DNA of 35,140 bases from Acidimicrobiia bacterium. Its GTDB lineage: Bacteria; Actinomycetota; Acidimicrobiia; Spongiisociales; Spongiisociaceae. The DNA lies in contig VXRE01000111.1 in the NCBI GenBank assembly GCA_009838635.1, positions 1 through 35,140 of the forward strand, given 5' to 3'. This document shows positions 2,961 through 31,944 of the stretch, in pieces (position 1 is the stretch's first letter; every line of letters begins with the position of its first letter). Made by a program: the position numbers and the translations under genes. The notes under the pieces are model-generated. The model saw nothing but the letters and a program-made list of their open reading frames with translations. It was not told where the DNA came from and ran no database searches.

Positions 2961-2986
2961 GCTCAACTTCGAGAGGAGGCGTTGCG

Positions 2987-4168: not shown

Positions 4169-4337
4169 CCTCGGCCTCCTGTTCGATTTATTCGTGCAAC
4201 GGTACGCGCGCCCGGCCGGCCCTGGGCTACCCCGGACGGGTTACCTGGCCGCTTCCTCGCTCGTTCCCAGAAGAGAACGGCGGCGTGATTGAGGAACGGT
4301 AGTGCTAGCGGCAAGGCAGCCGGTAGCGTCGGGCTCG
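4169..4337. other. Divergent intergenic region between amidohydrolase and glycosyltransferase
   Basis: These 169 bp separate two divergently transcribed genes and must hold promoters for both directions. A locally AT-rich stretch (about 4186-4200) lies just upstream of the AGGAGG of the amidohydrolase. I could not find a well-spaced -35/-10 pair for either strand, so no promoter is called. Confidence 0.4.
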
Positions 4338-7771: not shown

Positions 7772-7790
7772 CTCCAGCCCTCCCAGACCA

Positions 7791-9145: not shown

Positions 9146-9511
9146 GTGAGCGAATACTTCCAGGACTACGTCGCGGTGGCTGCATTCGCCGCATTCGGGG
9201 TCCTGCTGGTGGCCCTCACGCTGGGGATCACATACCTGGTGCGGCCCTCCAACCCCACCCGGGAGAAGGTCGCCACATACGAGTGCGGTGTGGACGCGGT
9301 CGGGGAGGGCTGGAACCAGACCTTCGTCCGCTACTACATCTTCGGCCTGCTGTTCGTGGTGTTCGACGTGGAGGCGGTCTTCATCTTCCCGTGGGCGGTG
9401 GTGTCCGAGGACCTCGGCCTACCGGGGGTGATAGCCATCGTCGTCTTCATCCTGACCCTCCTCGAAGGGCTCCTGTACGCGGTGCGCAAAGGGGTGCTCC
9501 GGTGGGAGTAG
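9146..9511 (+). CDS. nuoA: NADH-quinone oxidoreductase subunit A
   Basis: This 121-residue membrane subunit of complex I has three transmembrane segments. The conserved loop [20 protein letters not shown] carries the family cysteine, followed by [12 protein letters not shown] in TM2. Length matches NuoA. It opens the operon with a GTG start at 9146; no strong ribosome binding site is apparent. NuoA sits at the junction between the hydrophilic arm and the membrane arm, next to NuoH and near the quinone channel. Its last codons overlap the GTG start of nuoB by 10 bp. Confidence 0.95.
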
Positions 9512-10002
9512 TCGCCGATCGCTTCGGGGGCCTGAAGCCGGTTTCCTGGTTGCTCAACTGGTCCCGCCGCTACTCGCTCTGGCTGTTCCAGTTCGGCCTT
9601 GCCTGCTGCGCCATCGAGATGATGGCCGCCTCCGGGCCACGCTACGACTTCATGCGCTTCGGGATCATCCCCTTGCCCGCCTCGCCGCGGCAGGCGGACC
9701 TGATGGTGGTGGCCGGAACCGTGACCGACAAGATGGCCCCGGCCATCAAGCGCCTCTACGAGCAGATGCCCGAGCCCAAGTACGTGATATCGATGGGCTC
9801 CTGCTCCAACTGCGGCGGCCCCTACTGGGATTCCTACTCGGTCACCAAGGGAGTGGATCAGATCATTCCGGTGGATGTCTATGTCCCCGGCTGCCCGCCC
9901 CGGCCGGAGGCCCTGATGGACGGGATCGTCCTGCTGCAGCAGAAGATCAAGGACGAGGACGTGCGCGACAAGTGGAAGCAGCGTGACCGCCAGCCCGTCT
10001 GA
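9502..10002 (+). CDS. nuoB: NADH-quinone oxidoreductase subunit B
   Basis: This 166-residue subunit binds iron-sulfur cluster N2, the last electron carrier before quinone. The four expected cysteines are visible: the tandem pair in ACCAIEMM, one in GSCSNCGG, and one in [10 protein letters not shown] place the start at GTG 9502, which overlaps nuoA by 10 bp and gives the usual short N terminus before the family block [13 protein letters not shown]. The frame is open further upstream but that part is antisense to known family structure and is ignored. It acts with NuoC, NuoD and NuoI in the hydrophilic connecting module. Confidence 0.95.
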
Positions 10003-10585
10003 GAGCACCGTCTCCGAGGCAGCCGACGCGCTCGAGGAGTTCGCCGACCGGGTGGCCGCAGCGGTGGGCGGCCGGGCCGAGGTGGCCCACGGGACCGTCA
10101 AGGTGCGGGTGGCGCCCTCGGCCTGGAAGGAGGCCCTGACCGTTACCTCCGGTGACCTGGGTCTGGTGTTCCTGTCCTGGCTGTCCGCCACCGATTGGAC
10201 CAACGAGGTGGCGGTAGGGGATGAGCCCGACGAACCGGTGGAGGAGCGCTACGAGCTGCTGTGCGCGGTCTCCGACCTGTCGGACGGCAACCTGGCCATA
10301 ATCTCGACCGACCTCGACCACGACTCACCATCCATCCCGAGCGTGGCCGATGTCTATCCCGGCGCCAACTGGCACGAGCGGGAGGCCGCCGAGATGTTCG
10401 GCATCGATTTTGTGGGCCATCCGGACCTCACCAAGCTCTACCTGCCCGACTCCTTTGAGGGCTACCCGCTCCGCAAGGACTTCCCGTTGCTGAGCCGGGA
10501 GGTGAAGCCCTGGCCCGGCAAGGTCGACGTCGAGGACATGCCCGAGAACGGTGGCGGCCCCTCAACCGAGAACCCCGGCGCGTGA
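9983..10585 (+). CDS. nuoC: NADH-quinone oxidoreductase subunit C
   Basis: This 200-residue protein carries the 30-kDa subunit signature: [19 protein letters not shown], then [24 protein letters not shown]. It is separate from NuoD, unlike the fused NuoCD of E. coli. The GTG start at 9983 overlaps nuoB by 20 bp. The tail after the conserved core is Pro/Gly/Asn-rich and probably disordered. NuoC is a peripheral scaffold of the connecting module. The stop shares bases with the start region of nuoD. Confidence 0.94.
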
Positions 10586-11769
10586 TGCAAGGTACTTTCG
10601 CCCATCACCTGTCGGAGGCGGCCGTCTCGGTCGAGCTGGAGACCGAGGGCATGACCCTCAACATCGGTCCCCAGCATCCTTCCACCCACGGCGTGCTGCG
10701 CCTCGTGGCGACGGTCGACGGCGAGCGGGCCACCAACGTCCGCCCGGTCATCGGATACATGCACAGGGGCTACGAGAAGCTGTCGGAGGTTCGCACCTAC
10801 CCCCAGATCATCACCATCATCAACCGGATCGACTGGGTGTCGGGGTTCGCCAACGAGGTCCCGTTCGTGGTGGCGGCCGAGCGCCTGATGGGTGTCGAGG
10901 CCCCGCCCCGTGCGCAGTGGATCAGGCTGGTGCTGACCGAGATGGCGCGGATCTCCTCCCACCTGGTGTTCATGGCCTCCTACCCGCTGGAGCTGGGCGC
11001 CGCCACGCCGCTCTTCTTCGCCCTCCGGGAACGGGAGAGGGTGCTGGACCTGCTGGAGTCGGTCACCGGAGGCCGCTTCCACCCCAACTTCAACCGTCTC
11101 GGGGGGGTCAAGCCCGTCTACGCGGCCGGCCCGGTCACCAAGAAGGCCGGTATGGACATACCTTCCGGCTTCCTGGCCGAGACCAGGGATGCAATGACGA
11201 AGGTGCTCGCCACGTGCGACGAGATCGAGAACCTGGTGGCGGGCAACGAGGTGTTCCTGGCCCGCACCAAGGATGTCGGGATCATGCCCGCCGACATCGC
11301 GGCCTCGTACGGGGTCTCGGGGCCCAACCTGCGGGCCTCGGGTGTCGGGTTCGATCTGAGAAAGGTGTCGGACTACCTGCCCTACGGCGACTTCGACTTC
11401 GATGTCCCGGTGGGTCGCAACGGTGACTGCTGGGACCGGTGGTGGGTGCGCCTAGAGGAGATCCGCCAATCGTGCCGGATCATCACCCAGGCCATCGACG
11501 GCCTGCCGTCGAGCCCGCTCCAGGCCAAGGTACCCCGCATCATCAAGGTCCCGGCCGGCGAGACCTACGTTCGGGCCGAGAACCCGAAGGGGGAGATGGG
11601 TTACCACCTGGTGTCCATGGGCGGTCTCGGGCCCTACCGCCTCAAGATCCGCTCCGCCTCGTTCTCCAACCTCTCGATCCTGCCGTGGATCCTGGAGGAG
11701 GCCCTGGTGCCCGACTTCATCGCCATCATGGGTTCGCTCGACTTCGTCCTCGGAGACGTCGACCGATGA
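10585..11769 (+). CDS. nuoD: NADH-quinone oxidoreductase subunit D
   Basis: This 394-residue 49-kDa subunit shapes the quinone-binding cavity together with NuoB. The family motif NIGPQHPSTHGVLRL near the N terminus includes the His residues lining the quinone site. VRPVIGYMHRGYEKL and the C-terminal NPKGEMGYHLVSMGG and LGDVDR are also typical. Start choice is between GTG 10582 and ATG 10585; ATG 10585 gives a TGATG junction with nuoC, typical of coupled translation. The protein descends from NiFe-hydrogenase large subunits but lacks the metal-binding cysteines, as expected for NuoD. Confidence 0.95.
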   Translation: MQGTFAHHLSEAAVSVELETEGMTLNIGPQHPSTHGVLRLVATVDGERATNVRPVIGYMHRGYEKLSEVRTYPQIITIINRIDWVSGFANEVPFVVAAERLMGVEAPPRAQWIRLVLTEMARISSHLVFMASYPLELGAATPLFFALRERERVLDLLESVTGGRFHPNFNRLGGVKPVYAAGPVTKKAGMDIPSGFLAETRDAMTKVLATCDEIENLVAGNEVFLARTKDVGIMPADIAASYGVSGPNLRASGVGFDLRKVSDYLPYGDFDFDVPVGRNGDCWDRWWVRLEEIRQSCRIITQAIDGLPSSPLQAKVPRIIKVPAGETYVRAENPKGEMGYHLVSMGGLGPYRLKIRSASFSNLSILPWILEEALVPDFIAIMGSLDFVLGDVDR

Positions 11770-12761
11770 GCCTGGAGCTGACCTTCTGGTGGCTGCTGGC
11801 CATCAAGCTGGCGGTAGCGGCGGCGGTGGTTCCGGTGATCGGTATGGTGATCGGCTATGCGGAGATGAAGCTCTCCGCCCATATGCAGAGCCGGGTGGGC
11901 CCGTACTTCGCGGGCGGACGGTTCGGGTGGGCCCAGCTGATCGCCGACGGGGTGAAGTTCATCCAGAAGGAGGACATCATCCCCGAGGAGGCGGACCGTC
12001 CCGTCTTCAAGTGGGCGCCCGCCCTGGTGATGCTGGGGACGATGGCGTTGCTGGTGATCGTGCCTGTCCACCCTTCGCCCAGGTACGGGATCGTGCGCGA
12101 CCTGGAGGTCGGGATCTTCTACGCGCTGGCCATCTCGTCGGTCAGCACCATCGGCGTGCTCATGGCCGGATGGTCATCGGCCAACAAGTACTCGATGATC
12201 GGTGGGCTCCGGGCGGCCGGCCAGCTGATCGCCTACGAGCTGCCGCTGGTGCTCGCCACGGTCGGGGTGGTGATCCAGGCCGGAACTATGTCGATGCAAG
12301 GCATCGTGTCGGCGCAGGTGGCCCAGGGCTGGCCTTTCCTCCTGACCCAGTTCATCGGCTTCGCGATCTTCATGATCGCCACCCTCGCCGAGCTGACCCG
12401 CCTCCCGTTCGACATGCCGATCGCCGAATCGGAGTTGGTGATGGGCTATGTCACCGAGTACTCGGGGTTCCGGTTCCTGTTCTTCTTCCTGGCCGAGTTC
12501 GCCAACATGTTCTCGATGTCGGTGATCGCCGCCACGCTGTTCCTGGGTGGCTACGGCTTGTGGGGCATCAATCCCGAGACCCTCTTCTCGCCGATCATCC
12601 TGTTCGCCAAGGTCGGGATCCTGATCTTCCTGATGATCTGGCTGAGGTGGACCCTTCCGAGGCTGAGAGAGGACCAGCTCCAGACCCTGGCCTGGAAGTG
12701 GTTGATTCCGATTGCGATCGTGAACATCATCGCGACCGCGGTACTGAAGGTGGTGCTATAG
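11766..12761 (+). CDS. nuoH: NADH-quinone oxidoreductase subunit H
   Basis: This 331-residue integral membrane subunit has about eight hydrophobic segments. Family blocks seen are MQSRVGPYFAGGRFGWAQL, the cytoplasmic loop with KEDIIPEEADRPVFKWAP, and RLPFDMPIAESELVMGY followed by EYSGFRF. The charged loops of NuoH link quinone reduction to proton pumping at the membrane-arm interface. The start is ATG 11766, overlapping the nuoD stop as ATGA. The stop TAG is directly followed by the ATG of nuoI without any gap. Confidence 0.95.
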   Translation: MSLELTFWWLLAIKLAVAAAVVPVIGMVIGYAEMKLSAHMQSRVGPYFAGGRFGWAQLIADGVKFIQKEDIIPEEADRPVFKWAPALVMLGTMALLVIVPVHPSPRYGIVRDLEVGIFYALAISSVSTIGVLMAGWSSANKYSMIGGLRAAGQLIAYELPLVLATVGVVIQAGTMSMQGIVSAQVAQGWPFLLTQFIGFAIFMIATLAELTRLPFDMPIAESELVMGYVTEYSGFRFLFFFLAEFANMFSMSVIAATLFLGGYGLWGINPETLFSPIILFAKVGILIFLMIWLRWTLPRLREDQLQTLAWKWLIPIAIVNIIATAVLKVVL

Positions 12762-13283
12762 ATGAAACTCCCCCGGTTGCCCTCCCTCACCAAGGTGCCC
12801 AAACTCGGCATGCTGGCCGGTCTGCGCGTCACCTTCACCACCATGCTCCGGACCTGGGCGTTCAACCTGTCCGGCGGGCGAGTGGGCTTGCGGTCCACCG
12901 TCAACTACCCCAAGGTCAAGGAGACCCCCGTTCCCCGGGCACGGGGGGTCATAGCCCTCGAGCAGGAAGCCTGCACGGTATGCATGCTGTGCGCCCGGTC
13001 CTGCCCCGACTGGTGTATCTACATCGAGGGCCACAAGGAGATCAAGCCACCCTCCCGTCCCGGCGGGAGGCCTCGGGCCCGGGCCACCCTGGACCGCTTC
13101 GACATCGACTACGCCCTCTGCATGTACTGCGGTATCTGCGTGGAGGTCTGCCCCTTCGACGCCCTGTTCTGGACTCCCGAGTACGAGTACTCGGAGTACG
13201 ACATGGGACCGATGATGCACGACATGGATCGTCTCCAGGACTGGATGGAGACGGTGCCCAAGGGCCTGGGGGCACAATCGTGA
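12762..13283 (+). CDS. nuoI: NADH-quinone oxidoreductase subunit I (2x[4Fe-4S])
   Basis: This 173-residue ferredoxin-like subunit carries two [4Fe-4S] motifs, CTVCMLCARSCP and CMYCGICVEVCP, binding clusters N6a and N6b. The N-terminal 60 residues hold the amphipathic family segment that docks on the membrane arm. The acidic Tyr/Glu-rich stretch after the second motif (PEYEYSEYD) and a Met/Asp-rich C terminus are visible. In a complex without NuoEFG, these clusters would be the likely entry point for electrons from an alternative donor such as ferredoxin. It starts immediately after the nuoH stop. Confidence 0.95.
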   Translation: MKLPRLPSLTKVPKLGMLAGLRVTFTTMLRTWAFNLSGGRVGLRSTVNYPKVKETPVPRARGVIALEQEACTVCMLCARSCPDWCIYIEGHKEIKPPSRPGGRPRARATLDRFDIDYALCMYCGICVEVCPFDALFWTPEYEYSEYDMGPMMHDMDRLQDWMETVPKGLGAQS

Positions 13284-13326
13284 CCGCGGCGCCGGTCCGT
13301 GGTCGCCAACCGGCAGGACGGGTCGG

Positions 13327-13893
13327 ATGACCTTCTCCGAGTGGATCGCCGAACCCGTCAACTGGGCATTCCTGGCCATGGCGATCCCCATGGTGATAGC
13401 GGCGCTACGGGTCGTGACCAGCCGCAACGTGGTCCACGCCGCCCTGTTCCTGGTCCTGGCCCTGGCCGCCTCGGCCGGGCTGTTCATCCTCCTGTCGGCC
13501 GAGTTCGTGGCCTGGGTGCTGGTCCTGGTCTACATCGGTGCGGTGGTGGTGCTCTTCTTGTTCGGCATCATGATCACCCGAGCTCCGATCGGGCGGGAGA
13601 CCAACCTCAGCCACGACACCCGCTGGCCCGCTGCGGTCGCCGCGCTCGGGGTGTTCGCGGTGACCTTCTGGCTCATCAACGCGGTCGCCACTCAGATGGG
13701 CGGCTTCGGCGACCCGCTCCCCGCGGTGGGCCGGGCCACCGCCACCGGGATCCTGGGCGAGGGGTTCATCAACCGCTACCTGATCCCGTTCGAGGCGGTT
13801 GGCTTCGTCCTGCTGGCGGCCCTCATCGGCGGGATCACCCTGGCCCGCAAGGATCTCACCCCCGCCGAGGAGGAGGAGGGAGCCCGGGTATGA
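13327..13893 (+). CDS. nuoJ: NADH-quinone oxidoreductase subunit J
   Basis: This 188-residue membrane protein has five hydrophobic segments. It carries the family pattern SRNVVHAALFLVLALAAS in TM2 and FVAWVLVLVYIGAVVVLFLF in TM3, which holds the pi-bulge region involved in active/deactive switching. A 43-bp gap after nuoI is one of the few non-overlapping junctions in the operon. Start is ATG 13327. The C-terminal tail is acidic (EEEEG). It packs between NuoA, NuoH and NuoK in the membrane arm. Confidence 0.94.
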   Translation: MTFSEWIAEPVNWAFLAMAIPMVIAALRVVTSRNVVHAALFLVLALAASAGLFILLSAEFVAWVLVLVYIGAVVVLFLFGIMITRAPIGRETNLSHDTRWPAAVAALGVFAVTFWLINAVATQMGGFGDPLPAVGRATATGILGEGFINRYLIPFEAVGFVLLAALIGGITLARKDLTPAEEEEGARV

Positions 13894-13915
13894 CCCCGAT
13901 CCGCCGGAGCCCGGC

Positions 13916-14221
13916 ATGGTCCTGACCCAGTTCCTGGTCCTGGGGGCGCTCCTGTTCTCGATCGGGGTGTACGGCCTGCTGTCGCGCCGCAACGCCGTGA
14001 CGGTCCTGCTGGCGGTCGAGCTCATGCTGGCTGCGGTGAACATCAACCTGATCGCGTTCGAGGCGTTCTGGAACACGGCCGCCGCCCACGGCCAGATCTT
14101 CGCCATCTTCGTCATCACCATCGCCGCCGCCGAGGTCGGGATCGGCCTGGCCATCATCCTCCTGGTGTTCCGTAACCGCGCCTCGGGCAACATCGACCAA
14201 CTGGACCTGATGCGATGGTGA
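13916..14221 (+). CDS. nuoK: NADH-quinone oxidoreductase subunit K
   Basis: This 101-residue subunit with three transmembrane helices matches the family length exactly. Key features are the Glu in LLAVELMLAAVN (TM2) and the second Glu in IAAAEVGIGLAIILLVFR (TM3), both required for proton translocation in characterised complexes. The start is ATG 13916 with GGAG about 8 bases upstream. The open frame extends upstream into nuoJ, but that part has no family similarity. The last codons overlap nuoL by 7 bp. Confidence 0.95.
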   Translation: MVLTQFLVLGALLFSIGVYGLLSRRNAVTVLLAVELMLAAVNINLIAFEAFWNTAAAHGQIFAIFVITIAAAEVGIGLAIILLVFRNRASGNIDQLDLMRW

Positions 14222-16275
14222 GGGCGGTGGCCTCCGTACCCCTAGTCCTGGCCGCCGGGGAAGGCGGAGCCGGCGACCTGTCGTCCGGCGGTTTCTTCGC
14301 AGAGACCGCCTGGATCATGCTGGTGCTGCCCTTCGTCGCCTTCCTGGCCATCATCCTGGTGGGCAAGCGCATGAAGGGCCTCGGCGCCGAGCTGGCCATC
14401 GGCGCCATGGGGGTCAACCTGCTGTGGGCCAGCGTGCTGTTCGTCCAGAACATGTTCGAGGGCATCTACCGGGAGGTGAACCTCACTATCGGGGAGTTCG
14501 GCACCTTCGCGGGCCGCAGGTTGGCATTCGAGCTTGGGTTCGTGGTGGACGGCCTGTCGATCATGATGTACTGGGTGGTGGCCTTCGTGGGCTTCCTGGT
14601 CTTCGTCTACGCCCACGGCTACATGAAGGGCGACATCCGGGTGCCGTGGTTCTTCGCCTCCCTGTCGCTGTTCGCCGGATCGATGCTGGTCCTGGTGGGA
14701 GCGCCCAACCTGATCCAGTTGATCATCGGCTGGGAGGGCGTCGGTCTGGCCAGCTACCTGCTGATCGGCCACTATTGGGAGGAGAAGGAGAACAGCGACG
14801 CGGCGGTCAAGGCCTTCCTGACCAACAAGGTGGCCGATGTCGGCCTGATCCTCGGCACGATCCTCCTGGTGCCTGCGCTGGGCACGTTCCGCTTCTCGGC
14901 GCTCAGCGCGGCGGCCGATGCCCACAGCGAGGCGCTGGGAGGGGTAGCGGTGGCCGGCGCCCTGCTGCTCTTCTTCGGGGCCATGGGCAAGTCGGCCCAG
15001 TTCCCGCTGCATGTCTGGCTGCCGGACGCCATGGCCGGCCCCACCCCGGTCTCGGCTCTGATGCACGCCGCCACCATGGTCACCGCCGGCATCTACCTCA
15101 TGGCCCGGACCTTCCCCCTCTACCACCAGATGGCCACCGAGGCCCGGCCGTGGATGGTGACGATCGCGGTCATCACCCTGTTCGTGCTCGGCTTCCTGGC
15201 GCTGGTGGCCGACGACCTGAAGCGGGTGCTGGCCTACTCCACCGTCTCCCAGCTCGGATACATGATGGCGGCGGTGGCGGCCGGCGGGTACACGGCAGGC
15301 CTGTTCCACCTGTTCACCCACGCCTTCTTCAAGGCGTTGCTGTTCCTCGGAGCCGGGTCGGTCATCCACGCCGTCCACTCCAACAACATGAGCGACATGG
15401 GTGGCCTGCGCAAGGAGATGCCGGTCACCTTCTGGACGTTCGTAGTGGGATCACTGTCGCTGGCCGGCGTGATCCCGCTGGCCGGTTTCTGGTCCAAGGA
15501 CGAGATCCTGGCCACCCTCGGCCACGAGGGGTATACCGCCTTCATGTGGGTGGCGATCCTGGGGGCGTTCGTCACCGCCTTCTACATGACCCGAGCCGTT
15601 GCCCTGACCTTCTTCGGCACCTACAAGGGCCACGGCCATCCCCACGAGTCCCCGCCGGTCATGACCGCCCCGCTGGTGGCCCTCGCGGTTCCCAGCGTCA
15701 TCGCCGGCCTGCTCAACATCCCCGGGGTGTCATGGGGCCCGATCCGGAACTTCACGGACTGGGTGGGCGCCCGCATCGTCCCGATGGGGGACTACCACCC
15801 CAAGGCCATCGAATGGGAGCTGGCCGCCTACGGCCTGATCGCGGCGGTGGCCGGCATAGCCGTCGGATGGAGGCTGTTCGCTCCGGACGCCGAGACCCAG
15901 CAGGCGCGGGACCGGCTCCGGATCCCGGTGCTGTACCCGCTCCTCCACAACAAGTACTACATCGACGACCTTTACATGAAGGGCGTGGTCAACCCGGTCA
16001 AAGGTCCCCTGGCCCGGGCCGTCGACTGGGTGAACGGCTACGTCATCGACGCGGTCATCAACGGCGCCGGCGCGGTCACCGCCTGGCTGGGAGGGCTGGT
16101 CTACGGCCGCCTGGACCAGCAGGGCATCGACCTGTTGCTCAACGCCGCGGCGGGCGGAACGGGTGGTGCCGGCGGGAAGCTGCGGCTCCTCCAGAGCGGC
16201 AAGGTGCAGCAATACGCGGGCGCCTTCGTGGTGGGCGCCCTGCTGCTGGTAGTGGCCTTCGTGCTTGTGACCTAG
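14215..16275 (+). CDS. nuoL: NADH-quinone oxidoreductase subunit L (antiporter-like)
   Basis: This 686-residue polytopic protein is the distal antiporter-like proton-pumping subunit. Family hallmarks are the Glu in GWEGVGLASYLLIGHYW, the Lys in MGKSAQFPLHVWLPDAM, ADDLKRVLAYSTVSQLGYM, and GFWSKDEIL. The C-terminal region (about 540-686) contains the link to the lateral amphipathic helix and a last TM segment. Start ATG 14215 overlaps nuoK; the first ~30 residues before the first hydrophobic segment are longer and more Gly/Ala-rich than in many NuoL proteins, so a slightly later true start cannot be excluded. Confidence 0.95.
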   Translation: MVRAVASVPLVLAAGEGGAGDLSSGGFFAETAWIMLVLPFVAFLAIILVGKRMKGLGAELAIGAMGVNLLWASVLFVQNMFEGIYREVNLTIGEFGTFAGRRLAFELGFVVDGLSIMMYWVVAFVGFLVFVYAHGYMKGDIRVPWFFASLSLFAGSMLVLVGAPNLIQLIIGWEGVGLASYLLIGHYWEEKENSDAAVKAFLTNKVADVGLILGTILLVPALGTFRFSALSAAADAHSEALGGVAVAGALLLFFGAMGKSAQFPLHVWLPDAMAGPTPVSALMHAATMVTAGIYLMARTFPLYHQMATEARPWMVTIAVITLFVLGFLALVADDLKRVLAYSTVSQLGYMMAAVAAGGYTAGLFHLFTHAFFKALLFLGAGSVIHAVHSNNMSDMGGLRKEMPVTFWTFVVGSLSLAGVIPLAGFWSKDEILATLGHEGYTAFMWVAILGAFVTAFYMTRAVALTFFGTYKGHGHPHESPPVMTAPLVALAVPSVIAGLLNIPGVSWGPIRNFTDWVGARIVPMGDYHPKAIEWELAAYGLIAAVAGIAVGWRLFAPDAETQQARDRLRIPVLYPLLHNKYYIDDLYMKGVVNPVKGPLARAVDWVNGYVIDAVINGAGAVTAWLGGLVYGRLDQQGIDLLLNAAAGGTGGAGGKLRLLQSGKVQQYAGAFVVGALLLVVAFVLVT

Positions 16276-16315
16276 CCGAGCAACTCGAGAGAAAGACAGA
16301 GGAAGGACGAGCGAC

Positions 16316-17899
16316 ATGGACTGGTTCGAATCCGCGGGGCTCAGCCTCATCGTGTTCCTGCCCGCTGCGGGCGCGCTAGCCCTGTTCGCCGTGCCGAAGG
16401 CCCGGGAGGACGCCCAGAAGTGGGTGGCCCTGCTGACCACCGGCCTGACCGCGGTGCTGGCCGTCGCGGTGGCCGCCAACTTCAACTACGGAGGGTCGGA
16501 GAAGTTCCAGTTCGAGGTCTCCCAGAGCTGGATCCCGGCCATAGGCGCCCGGTACCACATCGGGGTGGACGGCATCAGCCTGCCGCTCCTGGTCCTCTCC
16601 GCGGTGGTGACCGTGCTGGCTGTCATCTACTCGTGGGATCACTGGGAGGAGCCCCGCAACGTCCGGGGCTTCCTCGCCCTCATACTGCTCCTGGCCACCG
16701 GCATGAACGGCACGTTCGTGGCGCTCGACCTGGTGCTCTTCTTCATCTTCTTCGAGCTGGTCCTGCTGCCCATGTACTTCATGATCGGCATCTGGGGGGA
16801 CAGCGCCAAGCGCCGCATCCCGGTGCTGGGCAGGACGGTGACGATGCGGCTCTACGCAGCCATCAAGTTCTTCATCTTCACCCTGTTCGGCTCGGCCTTC
16901 ATGTTGCTCGGCTTCCTCGCCCTGTACTTCCGGTCCGGCGACTTTCTCGGGGAGAATACGTTCGACATCCCGATCCTGATCGCGCTCGGATCGCAGAACG
17001 CGTTCGGGAGCGGCACGTTCGCCTTCCTGGTGTTCGGGGCGATGTTCCTGGGCTTCGCCGTGAAGGTGCCCATGTGGCCCTTCCACACCTGGCTTCCCGA
17101 CGCCCACACGGCCGCGCCGACGGTCGGCTCGGTGCTCCTGGCGGCGATCCTGCTGAAGCTCGGCTCCTACGCTTTCCTGCGGATCAGCATCCCGATCCTC
17201 CCCGACATGGCCCGGGAATGGGCGCCCTTCATCGGCCTGCTGGCGGTGATCGGCATCATCTACGGCTCCCTGGCCTGCCTGGCCCAGACCGACGTGAAGC
17301 GCCTGATCGCCTTCTCCTCGGTGGGGCACATGGGCTTCGTCATGCTGGGCATCGCCACCATGACCGATGTGGGCTTCAACGCCTCGCTGATCGGCATGGT
17401 CGCCCACGGGCTGATCACCGGCCTGCTCTTCTTCCTGGCCGGCTCGATGCATCACCGTTACCACACCCGCGAGATCGCCCGCATGGGCGGCAACCAGAAG
17501 CTCATGCCCTGGATGGGCGGCATCTTCGCCTTCACCGCCATGGCCTCGCTGGGACTGCCCGGCCTGGCCGGGTTCTGGGGCGAGTTCATGTCGCTCCTGG
17601 GCGCCTACCGTCCGCTGGCCGGGCTCAGCCTCAGCCAGTTCCAGACCTACATGGTGATCGGTGCCGTCGGGACCGTCCTCACCGCCGGGTACATGCTGTG
17701 GATGCTCCAGCGGGTCAACCTCGGCGAGCCCAAGGCCGAGTGGTCCGACCACGAGTTCCATGACGTGGAGCCCACCGAGTGGCTGGCCTGGGCGCCGCTG
17801 ATCGTGGCCATCGTGGCCATCGGCGTCTACCCGCGGATCGTCTTGGGGGCCACCACCGACGCGGTGGTGAACCTGGCCCGGACCGCCTTCGGAGGCTGA
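16316..17899 (+). CDS. nuoM: NADH-quinone oxidoreductase subunit M (antiporter-like)
   Basis: This 527-residue polytopic antiporter-like subunit has the NuoM features HIGVDGISLPLLVLSAVVTV, the TM5 Glu in FFEVLVLLPMYF-like context (here FFELVLLPMYFMIG), the Lys in FAVKVPMWPFHTWLPDAH, and TDVKRLIAFSSVGHMGFV. It starts at ATG 16316 after a 40-bp spacer with GAGGAAGGA upstream, so this gene has its own good ribosome binding site instead of coupling to nuoL. It forms one of the three parallel proton channels of the membrane arm. Confidence 0.95.
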   Translation: MDWFESAGLSLIVFLPAAGALALFAVPKAREDAQKWVALLTTGLTAVLAVAVAANFNYGGSEKFQFEVSQSWIPAIGARYHIGVDGISLPLLVLSAVVTVLAVIYSWDHWEEPRNVRGFLALILLLATGMNGTFVALDLVLFFIFFELVLLPMYFMIGIWGDSAKRRIPVLGRTVTMRLYAAIKFFIFTLFGSAFMLLGFLALYFRSGDFLGENTFDIPILIALGSQNAFGSGTFAFLVFGAMFLGFAVKVPMWPFHTWLPDAHTAAPTVGSVLLAAILLKLGSYAFLRISIPILPDMAREWAPFIGLLAVIGIIYGSLACLAQTDVKRLIAFSSVGHMGFVMLGIATMTDVGFNASLIGMVAHGLITGLLFFLAGSMHHRYHTREIARMGGNQKLMPWMGGIFAFTAMASLGLPGLAGFWGEFMSLLGAYRPLAGLSLSQFQTYMVIGAVGTVLTAGYMLWMLQRVNLGEPKAEWSDHEFHDVEPTEWLAWAPLIVAIVAIGVYPRIVLGATTDAVVNLARTAFGG

Positions 17900-17902
17900 T
17901 GG

Positions 17903-19393
17903 ATGGACCTCGACTACCACGCGCTCGCGCCTGAACTGGTCGTAGCCGCCACCATCCTGGTGGTGCTGGGGCTGGATGTGGCGCTGCCGCGTCCCCGCAA
18001 GTACTGGACCGCCTTCGCCGGGGTGCTGGGCCTGGCGCTGGCGGCGGTGCCGCTCCTGACGCTGGCGTTCGGCGACGGTCCGGAGACCAGGTCGATGCTG
18101 GGCGGGGCGTACGTGGTGGACGGCTTCGCTCTGGTCCTCAAGGCGGTGTTCATCGTGGGGGGCTACCTGGTGCTGCTGATGTCGGTGTCCTACATCGAGA
18201 GCGATCGCTACTACCAGGGCGAGTACTACCTGCTGATGCTCACCTCGATCCTGGGCTCGCTGGTGATGGCGTCGTCCCGGGACCTGATCACCCTGTTCGT
18301 GGGCCTCGAGCTGGTCACCGGGCCCCTGTTCCTACTGGCCGGATGGCGAAAGGGCGACGCCAAATCCAACGAGGCTTCACTGAAGTTCTTCATCCTCGGG
18401 GTGCTGTCCACCGCCATCCTGCTGTACGGCATGTCGTTCCTCTACGGACTGACCGGCTCGGTCACCTACGAGGGCATCCGGGAGGCCGGGGCCGACCTGT
18501 TAGACAGCGGGGCCTTCCGGCTGGCCGTGCTCTTCACCCTGGTGGGCTTCGGCTTCAAGGTGACGGCGGTGCCCTTCCATTTCTGGGCGCCGGATACGTA
18601 CGAGGGCGCTCCCACGCCCGTTACGGCCTACCTGTCCGTGGGATCGAAGGCGGCCGGCTTCGTCGGGCTGTTGCTGCTCTGCTACAAGGCGCTGCCGTCG
18701 GTGACCGAGATATGGGGTCCGGCGCTTTGGGTGCTCGCGGCGCTGTCGATGACGCTGGGCAACCTGACCGCGCTGCGCCAGGACAACGTGGTGCGCATGC
18801 TGGCCTACTCCTCGATCGCCCAGGGAGGCTTCATCCTGGTGCCGTTCGCGGCCGCGGCGGTGAGCAGCGATCCGGCGGTGATCCAGGAGGCGGCGTCGGC
18901 GACCATCGTCTACGTCATCATCTACGCCTTCATGAACCTGGGGGCCTTCGGGGTGGTGATCGCGGGCGCCCGCCGGACCGGCAGCACCATGATCGACGAC
19001 TGGGCCGGGATGTGGCGTTACGCTCCCCGCCTCGCCGTGCTGGGCGCCATGTTCTTCTTCTCGCTGGCCGGTATCCCGCCCCTGGCCGGTTGGTACGCCA
19101 AGTTCGCCATGTTCCTCGCCATCCTGCGCCCCGGCAACGCCTGGGCCACCGCCCTGGCGGTGATCGCGGCCGTCAACGCGGTGATCGCCCTGGTCTACTA
19201 CGCCCGCATCGGCAAGACCATGTGGATGGATCACGTGCCCGAAGGGACCGACACGGCCGCACGCCCGGTGAGCGGCTCCCTGGCCCTGGCCCTGGGCATC
19301 TCGGCGATCTTCGTGGTGGTGGCCGGCATCCTCCCGTTCGAGTTCGCCGGAGTCTTCGCCGACCTGGCCAAGGTGGTGACCACCGGCATCTGA
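17903..19393 (+). CDS. nuoN: NADH-quinone oxidoreductase subunit N (antiporter-like)
   Basis: This 496-residue protein is the third antiporter-like subunit and closes the nuo cluster. Recognisable blocks are the TM5 Glu in TLFVGLELVTGPLFLL, the Lys in GFGFKVTAVPFHFWAPDTYEGAP, RQDNVVRMLAYSSIAQ, and AGIPPLAGWYAKF. A GGAGG at 17891-17895, inside the end of nuoM, is well placed for ATG 17903. No gene for NuoE, NuoF or NuoG follows; a transporter gene comes next after 43 bp. Confidence 0.95.
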   Translation: MDLDYHALAPELVVAATILVVLGLDVALPRPRKYWTAFAGVLGLALAAVPLLTLAFGDGPETRSMLGGAYVVDGFALVLKAVFIVGGYLVLLMSVSYIESDRYYQGEYYLLMLTSILGSLVMASSRDLITLFVGLELVTGPLFLLAGWRKGDAKSNEASLKFFILGVLSTAILLYGMSFLYGLTGSVTYEGIREAGADLLDSGAFRLAVLFTLVGFGFKVTAVPFHFWAPDTYEGAPTPVTAYLSVGSKAAGFVGLLLLCYKALPSVTEIWGPALWVLAALSMTLGNLTALRQDNVVRMLAYSSIAQGGFILVPFAAAAVSSDPAVIQEAASATIVYVIIYAFMNLGAFGVVIAGARRTGSTMIDDWAGMWRYAPRLAVLGAMFFFSLAGIPPLAGWYAKFAMFLAILRPGNAWATALAVIAAVNAVIALVYYARIGKTMWMDHVPEGTDTAARPVSGSLALALGISAIFVVVAGILPFEFAGVFADLAKVVTTGI

Positions 19394-24145: not shown

Positions 24146-24305
24146 GTGGGAACCGGCTCCTTCGTGAACACCGAGGCCTTCGTCACAACGCTGGTCCTTC
24201 CGAACGGGAGCGCGCGTGTCAAGGCTAACCAGGCCCCCGAGGCTCGCCGAGAAGAAGGTTCGCTGGCTATCTTGGAATCGTGACACCGGAGAGGACCTGC
24301 GAGCC
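24146..24305. promoter_or_regulatory. Divergent intergenic region upstream of the selenoprotein operon
   Basis: These 160 bp lie between the divergent substrate-binding protein and the thioredoxin-like gene. A perfect minus-strand TTGACA is at 24222-24217 but I see no matching -10. TATCTT at 24268-24273 on the plus strand could be a -10 for the selenoprotein operon, again without a good -35. Promoter assignments are therefore tentative. A shared regulator binding here could couple import and the operon, but no operator-like repeat is obvious. Confidence 0.3.
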
Positions 24306-25748
24306 ATGAGCCTGCCCATCGCTGACGGACTGCTGGTGGTGGTCAAGGACGACTGCGAGACCTGCCATCTGGTAGTGCCCGTGCTGGCTGAACTCGCCGG
24401 GCGCGAGGACGGCGTGGCGGTCGTCTCCCAGGATCGGGCCGGCTTCCCCGAAGGCCTCGATGCCATCCACGACCGGGAGCTGGACATCTCGTGGCGTCTC
24501 GGCACCGAGACGACTCCCACCGTCTACCGGATGGAGGAGGGCGCGGTGGCCGACGAACAGGCCGGGTGGTACCGCACCGGATGGGAGCGGGTGACCGGAG
24601 TGACCGGTCTGGGAGCCGGACTTCCGGAGCAGCGGCCCGGATGTGGCTCGGACACCATGCTGCCCGACACCTACCAGAGGCTTCTGCGGCGCCATTCGCC
24701 CTATCCCATGTCCTCCCAGCGGGTTGAACTGGCGGCAGCCGAGGATCCCGTGGAGGCTGCCTTCGCTCGGGGATGGACGGACGGCCTTCCCGTTGTTCCT
24801 CCGACCGAGGAGCGGGTGGCGCGGATGCTGGAGGGCACCGATCTTCCTCCCGGTCAGGTGTTATGCACCCTCCCGCCCGATCTCGCCGAGTGCTCCGTGG
24901 AGAAGGTGGCGATCAACGCGGTGATGGCCGGCTGCCGACCCGAATACCTTCCGGTGGTGCTGGCCGCGGTGGAGGCGGCGGCGGGGCGCGGTTTCAACAT
25001 CCACGGGGTGTCGGCCACCACCTACTTCTCCGGGCCGGTGCTGATCGTCAACGGGCCGGTGCGGAGTCGGATCGGGATGAACTCGGGGGTCAACGTGCTC
25101 GGCCAGGGCAACCGGGCCAACCTGACCATCGGGCGGGCTCTCAACCTGGTGGTCCGCAACGTCGGCGGCGCCCGTCCCGGAGGCGTCGATCAGGCGACCT
25201 TCGGCAGCCCGAGCAAGCTCTCGTTCTGCTTCCCGGAGGATGAGGAGGGTTCCCCGTGGGAGTCCCTGGCCGTCCAGCGGGGCTTCGGGCCCGAGGAGTC
25301 CACGGTGACTCTCTTCGCCGCGCACGGACCGATCGAAGTGGTAGACCAGAAGTCGCGCACTCCCGAGTCGCTCGCCAGGACGCTGGCGCTGCAGCTGCGG
25401 ATGGTCGCGCACCCGAAGCTGGCGGGAATGTCCGAGGCGGTAGTGGTCGTGTCCCCCGAGCATGCCCGGCTGTTCCGGGAGGCGGGATGGACGAAGGCCC
25501 GGCTGCGCGAGGAGATCCACTCGCTGCTCACGCTTCCGGCCTCGGAGATGGTGGCCGGAGCGGGCGGGACGGCCGAAGGCATGCCGCCCTGGCTGGCGGA
25601 CCAGCGGCAGGAGTTGACGAAGTTCAGCCCTGAGGGTCTGTGGTTCGTCCATGCGGGCGGGGGCGCCGGAGGATTCTCGGCGATAATCTCGGGCTGGGTC
25701 GGTGGCAGGGCCGGCTCGGAGATGACCACCGTGGCGATCGATTGTTAG
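24306..25748 (+). CDS. Thioredoxin-like domain fused to a large uncharacterised domain, UGSC partner
   Basis: This 480-residue protein starts at ATG 24306, with GGAGAGG upstream. Residues about 8-100 look thioredoxin-like: a strand (GLLVVVKDDC) runs into a C-E-T-C redox motif at Cys17 and Cys20, then a helix, and a T-P at residues 70-71 where thioredoxins have their cis-proline. A linker leads to an unrecognised domain from about residue 148, opening with FARGWTDGLPVVPPTEERV and containing Cys187, Cys196 and Cys210, then IHGVSATTYFSGPVLIVNGP and a Gly/Asn-rich block. I cannot name that domain's function. The next gene, a selenoprotein, begins 9 bp later. The simplest reading is that the CxxC recycles the selenocysteine partner while the large domain binds substrate; this is inference. 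Confidence 0.8.
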   Translation: MSLPIADGLLVVVKDDCETCHLVVPVLAELAGREDGVAVVSQDRAGFPEGLDAIHDRELDISWRLGTETTPTVYRMEEGAVADEQAGWYRTGWERVTGVTGLGAGLPEQRPGCGSDTMLPDTYQRLLRRHSPYPMSSQRVELAAAEDPVEAAFARGWTDGLPVVPPTEERVARMLEGTDLPPGQVLCTLPPDLAECSVEKVAINAVMAGCRPEYLPVVLAAVEAAAGRGFNIHGVSATTYFSGPVLIVNGPVRSRIGMNSGVNVLGQGNRANLTIGRALNLVVRNVGGARPGGVDQATFGSPSKLSFCFPEDEEGSPWESLAVQRGFGPEESTVTLFAAHGPIEVVDQKSRTPESLARTLALQLRMVAHPKLAGMSEAVVVVSPEHARLFREAGWTKARLREEIHSLLTLPASEMVAGAGGTAEGMPPWLADQRQELTKFSPEGLWFVHAGGGAGGFSAIISGWVGGRAGSEMTTVAIDC

Positions 25749-25757
25749 GGGTGACCG

Positions 25758-26279
25758 ATGACGACTTTGTTGGATCCGACCAGCGAGAGAACCACGGGGG
25801 AGCGGCCCATCAGCGCTCGCTCCGCCAACCTCGCCGATGGCACGGTCGGCTTGCTCGATATCTCCAAGCCTCGGGGTGACGTGTTCATCAGGCGGCTGGA
25901 CGAGTTGCTGACCGAGATGGGGGTGGCGGTGCGCCATTACCGCAAGCCCACCTTCTCGAAGCCGGCGCCGCTCGACCTGCGCCGCCAGATCGCGGCCGAA
26001 TGCGGGGCGGTGATCGAAGCCCTGGCCGACTGAGGCTCCTGCGCGTCGTGCAGTGTGCATGACATAGTCGATCTGGAAGACCTGGGCGTGCCGGGCGTGT
26101 TCGTGGCCTCTGACCGCTTCGCGCAGGCGGCCGACGCACAGGGCAAGGCCCTTGGCATGCACCCCCGCCGAGTGCTCACCGACCATCCGATCCAGCAGCG
26201 CACCGACGAGGAGATGCGGGCTCTTGCCGAAGCGGCCTTTCCCGCCATCCTCGACGCGCTGACGGCCGGGCAACGCTAG
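25758..26279 (+). CDS. UGSC-family selenoprotein, in-frame TGA read as selenocysteine
   Basis: The frame from ATG 25758 reaches TGA at 26031-26033 and continues open to TAG at 26277-26279. Read through, it gives 173 residues with Sec92 in the motif A-D-U-G-S-C-A-S-C-S-V-H-D. This is the signature of the UGSC family, whose members have either U or C at this position. The flanks also fit: upstream a Rossmann-like half (LLDISKPRGDVFIRRLDELL, then RKPTFSKPAP), downstream VFVASDRFAQAADAQGKALG and a His-Pro (TDHPIQ) typical of the family's C-terminal half. Both sides of the TGA thus belong to one protein. A SECIS-like hairpin follows the TGA. Cys98 in U-G-S-C-A-S-C adds a third redox residue. Ordinary annotation would split it into a 91-residue ORF and a short ORF from GTG 26055. 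The biochemical function is not established. Confidence 0.88.
26028..26069 (+). promoter_or_regulatory. Candidate bacterial SECIS element
   Basis: Immediately after the TGA at 26031-26033, bases 26045-26052 pair with 26056-26063 to make an 8-bp stem with one G-U pair, closing a GUG loop at 26053-26055. The loop begins 20 nt after the TGA, and a G is its first base, as known for SelB-dependent bacterial SECIS hairpins (loop roughly 16-37 nt downstream). A lower 4-bp helix (26028-26031 with 26066-26069) includes the first base of the TGA, separated by an asymmetric internal loop. The structure was folded by hand. A shorter competing hairpin at 26039-26053 is also possible. Confidence 0.65.
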
Positions 26280-26308: not shown

Positions 26309-27502
26309 GTGCCCGTACTGGTCATCAACTGCGGCAGCTCGTCGATCAAGTACAAGCTGTACGGGCCGGGGGCGGAGAACCTGCTCGCGGGCGGGATCAT
26401 CGACGGTATCGGAGGGGAACAGCCGAGACACCTCCACGCCGCAAGCGATCAGGAGTTCGAAGCAGAGATAGAGGTCCGGGACTACCGGCAGGGGGTGGCC
26501 GCGATCATCAAGGCCCTGGCCGGGTGGGGATCCCCACCGCCGATCGGCGACCCGTCCGAGATAGTCGGTGTGGGACACCGGGTCGTGCACGGAGGCGACC
26601 GTTTCTCCGAGTCCGTGGTGATCGACAGCGCGGTCATCGAGGAGGTCGAGTCCCTGGGCGCATTGGCCCCGCTTCACAACCCCGCCAACCTGGCGGGTAT
26701 CCGGGCCGCCCGCGAGCACCTGCCGGGAGCCCTGGGGGTGGCGGTGTTCGACACCGCCTTCTTCTCCACGCTTCCCCCGCACGCATACCGGTACGCGGTC
26801 CCCGAGCGCTGGTGGCGGGACTTCGGGGTGAGGCGGTACGGGTTCCACGGCATCAGCCACCGGTACCTGGCGGAGCGAGCCGCCCGGTTGCTGGAGAACC
26901 CCCGGCCCAACCTGGTGACCCTCCATCTCGGCGCCGGCGCCTCGGCATGCGCGATCCGGGACGGGAAGGCGGTGGACACCTCCATGGGCATGACGCCACT
27001 GGAGGGGCTGGTGATGGGCACTCGGAGCGGCGACATCGATCCGGCGGTGGTGTTCCACCTACTGGAGACGGGGTTGCCTGCCTCCGAAGTCCGGCGAGGT
27101 CTGCAGATGGAGGGGGGCTTGCTCGGCCTGAGCGGGATATCGTCCGACTTTCGCCGGGTTGCCGACCGCGCCCGTGCCGGCGATCGAGCCGCCGCCTTGG
27201 CGGTGGAGACCTTCGCCCACCGGGTCCGCCGCTATCTGGGCGCCTTCCTGGTACAGGTCGCGCCATGCGACGGGGTGGTCTTCTCCGGCGGCATCGGGGA
27301 GAACAGCGATGAGGCCCGGCACCTCATCCTGAGTGGTCTGGAGACGCTGGGCCTGGTCGTGGATCCCGCCCGCAACTGCGGCGAGGGGGAGAGGCGTATC
27401 TCCGCCGACACCGGCTCCGTCGACATATGGGTGATCCCCACCGACGAGGAGTCCCTGATAGCCCGGGACACCTCCCGCCTCCTCAACGATCGCGTGTCCT
27501 GA
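26309..27502 (+). CDS. ackA: Acetate kinase
   Basis: This 397-residue protein is of standard AckA length. It has the signature VLVINCGSSSIKYKLY at the N terminus, GVGHRVVHGGDRF with the catalytic Arg, FDTAFF, the active-site RYGFHGISHRYL, LGAGASACAI, and TRSGDIDPAVV with the catalytic Asp-adjacent Arg, then SGGIGENS for nucleotide binding. It interconverts acetyl phosphate plus ADP and acetate plus ATP in the cytoplasm. The GTG start at 26309 lies 29 bp after the selenoprotein stop. No phosphotransacetylase is next to it, which raises the question of what makes acetyl phosphate; the preceding two genes are candidates by analogy with glycine reductase. Confidence 0.95.
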   Translation: MPVLVINCGSSSIKYKLYGPGAENLLAGGIIDGIGGEQPRHLHAASDQEFEAEIEVRDYRQGVAAIIKALAGWGSPPPIGDPSEIVGVGHRVVHGGDRFSESVVIDSAVIEEVESLGALAPLHNPANLAGIRAAREHLPGALGVAVFDTAFFSTLPPHAYRYAVPERWWRDFGVRRYGFHGISHRYLAERAARLLENPRPNLVTLHLGAGASACAIRDGKAVDTSMGMTPLEGLVMGTRSGDIDPAVVFHLLETGLPASEVRRGLQMEGGLLGLSGISSDFRRVADRARAGDRAAALAVETFAHRVRRYLGAFLVQVAPCDGVVFSGGIGENSDEARHLILSGLETLGLVVDPARNCGEGERRISADTGSVDIWVIPTDEESLIARDTSRLLNDRVS

Positions 27503-29616: not shown

Positions 29617-31944
29617 ATGACCACACCGGACTCGGACAGCGACGCCTCGAGCCTGACGCTGACGCACTGGGGCGCCTACGAGGTCGAAGCCTCGGGCGGC
29701 GCCATCCAGGCGGTGCGGCCCTTCCGCCACGATCCCGATCCGTCTCCCATCGGGGACTCCCTGGCCGACATCGGGCGATGCCGGGTCGGCATGCCGTCGG
29801 TCAGGGAGAGCTGGTTGGAGGCCGGCCCCGGAGCCGCTACCCACCGCCGCGGCAGGGAGCGGTTCGTGGAGGTCGGCTGGGATCAGGCTCTCGACCTGGT
29901 GGCCGCCGAGCTCGAACGGGTGCGGAGCGAGCACGGCAACCAGGCCATCTACGCGGGTTCCTACGGCTGGGCCAGCGCCGGGCGCTTCCACCATGCGCAG
30001 AGCCAGCTTCACCGCTTCATGAACTCGATCGGCGGCTACACCGGCTCGGTCAACACATACAGCCTTGCGGCGGCCGAGGTCATCCTTCCCCACGTGGTCG
30101 GGACCCGGTGGTGGGCTTTAGAGAAGGTCCACACCTCGTGGGACGTGATCGCCGCCGAGACCGACCTGATGGTGGCGTTCGGGGGCATACCGGTGAAGAA
30201 CAGCCAGGTGGACTACGGCGGTGTGGGTCGCCATGAGGTGAGCGGCTGGTTGCGGAGGTGTGCCGAGCGGGGCGCCCGCTTCGTGAACGTGTCGCCCATC
30301 GATGACGATGTCGTGGACTACGTGGACCCGGAGTGGATCCCGATCCGGCCGGGCACCGACGTCGCCCTGATGCTGGCTCTCATCCATACCCTGATCGAGG
30401 ACGGCTCCTACGATCGCGACTTCGTCGGGCGGTACTGCGTGGGTTGGGAGGCACTGGCCGCCTACATCACCGGCGACACCGACGGGGTTTCCAAGGATCC
30501 GGAATGGGCCGGACCGATCACCACCGTCCCGCCCGAGCGGATCAGGTCGCTGGCCGGCGCGTTGGTAACGGGGCGCACCATGATCAACGCCAGCTGGTCC
30601 TTGCAACGGGCTCACCATGGCGAGCACGCCATCTGGGCGGCCGTCGCCCTCGCCGCCGCCATCGGGCAGATCGGCCTTCCCGGAGGCGGTTTCGGCATCG
30701 GGTACGGGGCGGTGGCGGCCCTCGGAAACGGGTTCGACAAGGCGTGGCTGCCCCGTCTGAAGCCGGGGCGGCCGGTCATCGACTCCTACATCCCGGTAGC
30801 AAGGATCGCCGACATGCTGGCCGGGCCGGGCGAGGAGTACGAGTACGACGGCGCAACCCGCACCTACCCGGACATCCGCCTGGTCTACTGGGCGGGCGGC
30901 AACCCCTTCCACCATCACCAGGACCTCAACCGCCTGCGCGGGGCCTGGCAGCGTCCCGAGACGGTGATCGTTCATGAGCCCTTCTGGACGGCCACCGCCA
31001 GGCACGCCGACATCGTGCTGCCCACCACCACCGCCCTGGAGAGAAACGACATCGGCGGAAAGCCCAGCGATCCGTACTTCTTCGCCATGAAGAAGGCCAT
31101 CGAGCCGGTGGGCGGCGCCAGGGACGACCATGACATTCTCGGCGCCCTGGCCGCCCGCCTCGGCACGGGAGATACCTTCTCGGAAGGTCGCACTGCCGAC
31201 GGTTGGGTTCGGTTCATGTACGAGCAGTACCGGCGGAGCGAACCGGGGAGCCCCGCCTTCGAGGAGTTCTGGCAGGCCGGGTTCATCGACCGCGGGCTGG
31301 GGGGCGGGGAGCCGAAGCGGGTGATGCTGGAGGAGTTCCGAGAGGACCCCGACCGGTATCCGCTCCGTACCCCGTCGGGCCGGATCGAGCTCTACTCCGA
31401 GCGCATCGCCGGTTTCGGATATGACGACTGCCCGCCGCATCCGGCCTGGATGCCTCCGGGCGAATGGCTGGGCGAAGCGATCGGCGAGGCCGACCTGCAC
31501 CTGATCTCCAACCAGCCCTCCACCCGGCTCCACAGCCAGCTGGACCACGGGTCGAACAGCCGTGGCGCGAAGGTCGCCGGTCTCGAACGGCTACGGATGC
31601 ATCCCGATGACGCCGCCCGGCGGGGTATCGAGGACGGCGACGTGGTCCGCGTCTTCAACGACCGGGGCGCCTGCCTGGCCGGGGTGACGATCACCGACCG
31701 GATCCGGCGCAGGGTGGTCCAGCTGGCCACGGGGGCCTGGTACTCGCCGGGCGTCGGGCCCGACCTGGATGGCACCTGCCTGCACGGCAATCCCAACGTA
31801 CTCACCGCCGATGTCGGAAGCTCGAGCCTGGCGCAGGGGCCCACCGCCCAGACCTGCCTGGTCCGGGTGGAACTATGGCCGGGAGCGCCTCCGGCCCACC
31901 ACGCCTTCGACCCACCTGAGATCGTCGCCCTGGGAGAGCGGTAG
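29617..31944 (+). CDS. DMSO-reductase-family molybdopterin oxidoreductase (BisC/TorA-like)
   Basis: This 775-residue protein is a molybdopterin-guanine-dinucleotide oxidoreductase of the TMAO/DMSO/biotin sulfoxide reductase group. The YAGSYGWASAGRFHHAQSQ block leads to NTYSLAAAEV, where Ser149 aligns with the Mo-coordinating serine of DMSO reductase, so the metal ligand is serine, not Cys or Sec. Further family blocks are TDLMVAFGGIPVKNSQ, PIRPGTDVALMLALIHTL, YWAGGNPFHHHQDLNRL, PTTTALERNDIGG, and the C-terminal NQPSTRLHSQLDHG with DGDVVRVFNDRGA. There is no N-terminal [4Fe-4S] motif and no twin-arginine signal, so it should act in the cytoplasm like BisC. It probably reduces an S-oxide or N-oxide; substrate and electron donor are unknown. 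Confidence 0.92.
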   Translation: MTTPDSDSDASSLTLTHWGAYEVEASGGAIQAVRPFRHDPDPSPIGDSLADIGRCRVGMPSVRESWLEAGPGAATHRRGRERFVEVGWDQALDLVAAELERVRSEHGNQAIYAGSYGWASAGRFHHAQSQLHRFMNSIGGYTGSVNTYSLAAAEVILPHVVGTRWWALEKVHTSWDVIAAETDLMVAFGGIPVKNSQVDYGGVGRHEVSGWLRRCAERGARFVNVSPIDDDVVDYVDPEWIPIRPGTDVALMLALIHTLIEDGSYDRDFVGRYCVGWEALAAYITGDTDGVSKDPEWAGPITTVPPERIRSLAGALVTGRTMINASWSLQRAHHGEHAIWAAVALAAAIGQIGLPGGGFGIGYGAVAALGNGFDKAWLPRLKPGRPVIDSYIPVARIADMLAGPGEEYEYDGATRTYPDIRLVYWAGGNPFHHHQDLNRLRGAWQRPETVIVHEPFWTATARHADIVLPTTTALERNDIGGKPSDPYFFAMKKAIEPVGGARDDHDILGALAARLGTGDTFSEGRTADGWVRFMYEQYRRSEPGSPAFEEFWQAGFIDRGLGGGEPKRVMLEEFREDPDRYPLRTPSGRIELYSERIAGFGYDDCPPHPAWMPPGEWLGEAIGEADLHLISNQPSTRLHSQLDHGSNSRGAKVAGLERLRMHPDDAARRGIEDGDVVRVFNDRGACLAGVTITDRIRRRVVQLATGAWYSPGVGPDLDGTCLHGNPNVLTADVGSSSLAQGPTAQTCLVRVELWPGAPPAHHAFDPPEIVALGER

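Follow-up and report, generated by a model that had tools for sequence, protein, structure and literature searches.

A probable selenocysteine-dependent UGSC-family protein in an acidimicrobial genome, its constant partner domain and its likely distant kinship with GrdB and PrdB

In a 35,140-nucleotide stretch of DNA from an Acidimicrobiia bacterium (contig VXRE01000111.1, referred to as the window), the frame at 25758–26279 is broken by one internal stop alone, a TGA at 26031–26033, before it ends at a TAG. UGA is normally a stop codon, and the mechanical open reading frame at this place ends at the TGA as a 91-residue ORF, as the initial annotation had foreseen for routine gene callers. The question raised by the locus is whether the codon is a stop or encodes selenocysteine (Sec), and what the full-length protein might do together with its neighbors.

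The in-frame TGA and its decoding

The features that bear on the first part of this question are as follows.

25747–25751, forward strand: AGGGG, Shine-Dalgarno-like, overlapping the stop codon of the partner gene and preceding ATG 25758 (sequence)
25758–26279, forward strand: UGSC-family selenoprotein gene, 173 residues, with Sec as residue 92 (PF24696, NF041046, AlphaFold2 pLDDT 89)
26031–26033, forward strand: TGA codon that almost certainly encodes selenocysteine, residue U92 in the motif UGSCASC (TGA or Cys codons in homologs, Sec machinery of the genome)
26045–26063, forward strand: SECIS hairpin GUCGUGCAGUGUGCAUGAC, 8 bp with the loop GUG closed by an A-U pair (−9.1 kcal/mol, covariation, codon choice)

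Read through the TGA, the frame matches PF24696 over residues 4–169 with an E-value of 5.9e-43 (147.4 bits against a cut-off of 25) and NF041046, the model named “UGSC family (seleno)protein”, with 150 bits against a cut-off of 125. The initial proposal that both sides of the TGA belong to one conserved protein is borne out by this match and by the homolog alignment, in which conservation is seen on both flanks and continues downstream. The motif reads U92-G-S-C95-A-S-C98, and the columns U92, G93, S94 and C95 are invariant when Sec is written as C. The codon was also correctly placed at a position occupied by Sec or Cys: TGA stands there in 80 of 91 distinct homologs, and the Cys homologs that the initial annotation had suggested looking for make up the other 11, with four Sec/Cys changes required on the tree. 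Within the class Acidimicrobiia the family is present in 108 of 295 genomes, most matches having exactly one TGA, and relatives that keep the TGA are found in many of these genomes as well as in a few Pseudomonadota, Chloroflexota and other phyla. Since the codon is kept across phyla in a protein conserved on both sides of it, it is not there by chance, and since it recurs in dozens of independent assemblies it is not a sequencing error, a possibility that the initial annotation had raised.

The source genome, of 2.89 Mb on 171 contigs and 96% completeness, carries all four components of the Sec machinery that had been named as a check: a tRNA-Sec on contig C47 (14997–15087, 77 bits; called SeC with anticodon tca by ARAGORN), adjacent selA and selB on contig C55, and selD, which itself has an in-frame TGA, on contig C91.

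The SECIS hairpin comprises nucleotides 12–30 after the UGA, GUCGUGCA-GUG-UGCAUGAC, with its loop starting 20 nt past the codon. The bacterial SECIS model (stem of 4–16 bp, loop of 3–9 nt with a G in the first two places, 16–37 nt from the UGA, MFE ≤ −7.5; PMC13188914) describes it well at 8 bp, a GUG loop, 20 nt and −9.1 kcal/mol. Single-sequence folding found no unusual stability of the whole 42-nt stretch (z 0.03), so the evidence for the element comes from covariation and codon choice. Over 39 Sec sequences, pairing is kept in 96% of cells and both sides have changed in four of the eight pairs; the covariation score is reached by none of 500 shuffles, and sliding the pairing partner destroys the pairing. 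In the clade with the motif UGSCTSW TGC (Cys) is replaced by TGG and, opposite it, the Val codon GTG by GTC, so that the pair is kept. For the loop serine, 43 of 45 clade-A sequences use AGT, a codon that accounts for 16 of the 384 other serine codons in these genes; the nearest Cys forms have AGC at this serine.

A genuine stop codon or a misassembly at this place, leaving a truncated gene or pseudogene, would agree with the usual meaning of UGA and with the behavior of gene callers; this reading has next to no chance of being correct given the same-codon TGA (or Cys) of homologs over several phyla, the full Sec machinery, the covarying hairpin and the protein conservation 3' of the codon. 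On these sequence comparisons we are practically certain that TGA 26031–26033 is the selenocysteine codon of a UGSC-family protein, as first annotated, and the locus illustrates how routine annotation cuts genes at a Sec codon.

The protein is a further member of a family that is itself already known, since about 2008, and it is therefore one of a known kind. It shares with PF24696 and NF041046 the full-length match, the U/C-G-S-C motif and the Sec form, and it shows no essential difference from them. Its UGSCASC motif had been singled out as a notable variant, which did not hold up: common forms are UGSC[T/A/V]SC or UGSCTTC, the protein falls in the common UGSC[T/A]SC clade, and the motif is ordinary because UxxCxxC occurs in 61 of the 80 Sec forms. 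In marine and fresh water, few selenoproteins are commoner than those of the UGSC family, of which the GOS data contain 255 Sec forms (PMC2398784); a review from 2026 lists them with the selenoproteins whose function is largely uncharacterized (PMC13188914).

Probable relationship to GrdB and PrdB, and predicted fold

The initial annotation had also noted a likeness of the motif spacing to that of glycine reductase selenoprotein B (GrdB), to which a UxxCxxC motif is ascribed (PMC13188914). The likeness stands, and it extends beyond spacing to homology detectable by profile comparison; actinobacterial relatives of GrdB read U-G-T-G/S-T-R-C/S at this place, where the initial annotation gave U-G-T-C-T-R-C. 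For the comparison, sequences of GrdB and of short PrdB-like proteins were taken from the phylum to which the genome belongs and were read past their own TGA; gap-trimmed profiles were then compared with hhalign. UGSC against pooled GrdB/PrdB gave 96.2 and 95.2%, with Sec aligned on Sec, while the values were 95.7/94.7% against GrdB alone and 90.3/78.8% against the PrdB-like proteins alone. The signal persisted when the Sec column was masked (94.8/93.5%) and when the seven-residue motif was masked (91.4/82.2%). Among 200 column shuffles of the gap-trimmed profiles the highest value was 5%, the pooled GrdB/PrdB profile against unrelated profiles reached at most 6% in 64 comparisons, and an earlier control against unrelated profiles gave 29% in one case. 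The E-values of 2e-9 to 3e-8 are not to be read literally, because untrimmed controls had produced one artefactual shuffled score (99% over 37 columns at 11% identity), after which gappy columns were trimmed. As a single sequence, UGSC had no match to PF07355 at E 0.01.

From these profiles it is very likely that UGSC is distantly related to the part of GrdB and PrdB around Sec, and the comparison, the masking and the controls together make it look like a short, divergent third branch of that family. A search of the available literature found no paper that states this relationship, which seems to be new. Relative to GrdB (PF07355), the likeness would be a distant homology over the Sec region, with a Cys at U+6 in many members; at 173 residues UGSC is without the N-terminal half of GrdB, and no GrdA was seen at its locus. 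With PrdB of D-proline reductase and the short PrdB-like U-P-x-C proteins it shares Sec, the Cys at U+3 and a probable distant homology (79–90%), whereas its motif is U-G-S-C rather than U-P-x-C and no PrdA-type partner was identified beside it.

An AlphaFold2 model of UGSC (pLDDT 89.4, pTM 0.85) has a five-stranded alternating alpha/beta fold with U92 at the start of helix 93–108. Its best structural matches include flavodoxins and DJ-1, at modest TM-scores, and the predicted fold appears flavodoxin-like. The GOS paper of 2008 had guessed a Trx-like fold (PMC2398784), which we reject in view of this model; the Trx profile likewise has no similarity to the UGSC profile. Searches of solved-structure sequences with UGSC, its partner and GrdB gave nothing credible.

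Several related genes were seen along the way. PF07355, the Pfam GRDB model, gives matches that stop at the residue preceding Sec, which would fit a model built from TGA-truncated proteins. The same genome holds a second Sec system on contig C138, an operon whose presence seems likewise to be new, with GrdE at 3950–5401 on the reverse strand (PF09338, E 6e-97) and GrdB at 2899–3939 on the reverse strand plus a C-terminal part past its TGA; its motif is U-G-T-G-T-R-S-G, its neighbors are a beta-keto acid cleavage enzyme and amidohydrolases, and no GrdA was seen nearby. On contig C91, at about 6812–7780 on the forward strand, a short protein matches the C-terminal part of PF07355, the match ending just ahead of an in-frame TGA. 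Relatives of this protein (L132–L145) have U-P-x-C in the read-throughs examined and are common in Acidimicrobiia.

The partner gene and the acetate kinase

Upstream and downstream of the UGSC gene lie the following features.

24216–25748, forward strand: partner gene, an N-terminal thioredoxin-like domain plus domain X; the conserved start is probably ATG 24306, as relatives begin at the matching residue
24306–24665, forward strand: thioredoxin-like domain of the partner, with a CETC motif, TPT (cis-Pro type) and then a conserved RPGCG linker (alignment; TraF/Thioredoxin matches)
24666–25745, forward strand: domain X of the partner, 360 residues (AlphaFold2 pLDDT 79.6, pTM 0.80)
26309–27502, forward strand: acetate kinase gene (ackA), 29 nt past the UGSC stop and the only one in the genome (PF00871, E 1.7e-130; TIGR00016, 426 bits, over its cut-off)

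The N-terminal domain of the partner has weak but consistent matches to TraF/Thioredoxin families, and domain X was recognized by no Pfam or NCBIfam model. Cysteines at residues 240 and 338 of the partner are conserved in about 90% of members. In a neighborhood set of 67 UGSC genes at 64 loci, domain X adjoins UGSC on the same strand in all 65 cases with a visible neighbor, in both gene orders, and the two genes without it lie at contig starts. Domain X is often accompanied by a thioredoxin-like domain, and at one locus (L103) UGSC, with its U, and domain X are fused in one 552-residue frame. It is very probable that the partnership is obligate, and this invariant partner seems to be new. The UGSC/Unknown_1 fusion in the GOS data (PMC2398784) joins UGSC to a conserved domain that may be domain X.

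No pyruvoyl-type partner (GrdE/PrdA, PF09338) was found at the UGSC locus, where the partner has no Pfam match. A kinship of domain X with GrdE was considered and rejected, as profile similarity was absent, so the pyruvoyl chemistry of the Grd and Prd systems is not carried over. A class I fumarase fold was also rejected: the best matches reached E 6e-4 but a TM-score of only 0.29. Some genomes hold several UGSC-domain X pairs (among L072–L079, L087 and L100–L109). Outside clade A, the genes around some pairs encode acyl-CoA ligases, enoyl-CoA hydratases and short-chain dehydrogenases, which may hint at a substrate.

In the genus, ackA adjoins UGSC and is the only acetate kinase in 8 of 8 genomes searched, which were chosen because UGSC is present. 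PTA_PTB and phosphoketolase are absent from all eight and both families were detected in control genomes; this search for acetyl-phosphate sources covered Pta and phosphoketolase. The adjacency is confined to the genus and a few close relatives, and other UGSC clades have no ackA beside the gene. The orphan acetate kinase beside UGSC seems to be a new observation. In glycine reductase, a thioredoxin-driven reduction yields acetyl phosphate, from which acetate kinase makes ATP (PMC9751293, PMC13188914). The order of Trx-domain X, UGSC and AckA mirrors that set of thioredoxin reductant, Sec protein and downstream acetate kinase, with domain X standing where glycine reductase has the pyruvoyl GrdE.

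A possible two-component reductase

The explanation that seems best, and which we consider somewhat probable, is an enzyme of two components, in which UGSC, with its kinship to GrdB/PrdB, provides the catalytic selenolate and the Trx-domain X protein is the other part. That the pair forms a selenolate reductase of this kinship, to which domain X contributes the second component, is about as plausible. Sec would sit at the N-terminal end of the helix after the third strand of the flavodoxin-like sheet and would attack a substrate held by domain X, here taken as the substrate-binding part; Cys95/Cys98 and the attached thioredoxin-like domain would then reduce the Se-S bond so formed. That the pair cleaves an organic substrate reductively is slightly favored. 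In the genus, the product may be an acyl phosphate (acetyl phosphate), from which the neighboring AckA could make acetate and ATP, the route known from glycine reductase; that UGSC supplies AckA in this way is a tentative proposal, and the GrdE and GrdB pair of the same genome, which could also feed AckA, speaks against it. More speculative still is that UGSC and domain X form a widespread third class of selenolate-dependent reductases, next to those for glycine and proline, in which domain X replaces the pyruvoyl subunit and, in the genus, an acyl phosphate yields ATP through an AckA without Pta.

Just as conceivable as the supply of AckA is a GrdB/PrdB-type reductase that makes no acyl phosphate and has AckA as a bystander. 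The restriction of the adjacency to the genus and its close relatives fits this, as does the fact that in some other clades the nearby genes encode acyl-CoA ligases, hydratases and dehydrogenases; the occurrence of the sole ackA at exactly this place in eight genomes, with neither Pta nor phosphoketolase as its partner, argues the other way.

Most bacterial selenoproteins are redox enzymes, and the pair could accordingly be a general selenol/thiol redox enzyme for disulfide or peroxide reduction or an antioxidant role, rather than a substrate-cleaving reductase. The UxxC motif, the thioredoxin-like domain of the partner and the Trx-like fold guessed in 2008 (PMC2398784) agree with such a role, which we nevertheless regard as rather unlikely: the fold predicted for UGSC resembles that of flavodoxin, comparison with the Trx profile gave no similarity, the relatives appear to be GrdB and PrdB, and a conserved partner domain of 360 residues exceeds the needs of a redox relay. 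The probable placement with GrdB/PrdB, the invariant partner and the orphan acetate kinase together define a concrete assay for UGSC function.

Elsewhere in the window, a Complex I operon occupies 9146–19393 on the forward strand, in which nuoA, B, D, H, I and L are recognizable and the ORF list points to C, J, K, M and N as likely further members; nuoE, F and G were not seen among them. At 29617–31944, also on the forward strand, lies a molybdopterin S/N-oxide reductase of the BisC/TorA kind (TIGR00509, 932 bits, just under the cut-off of 1017.55).
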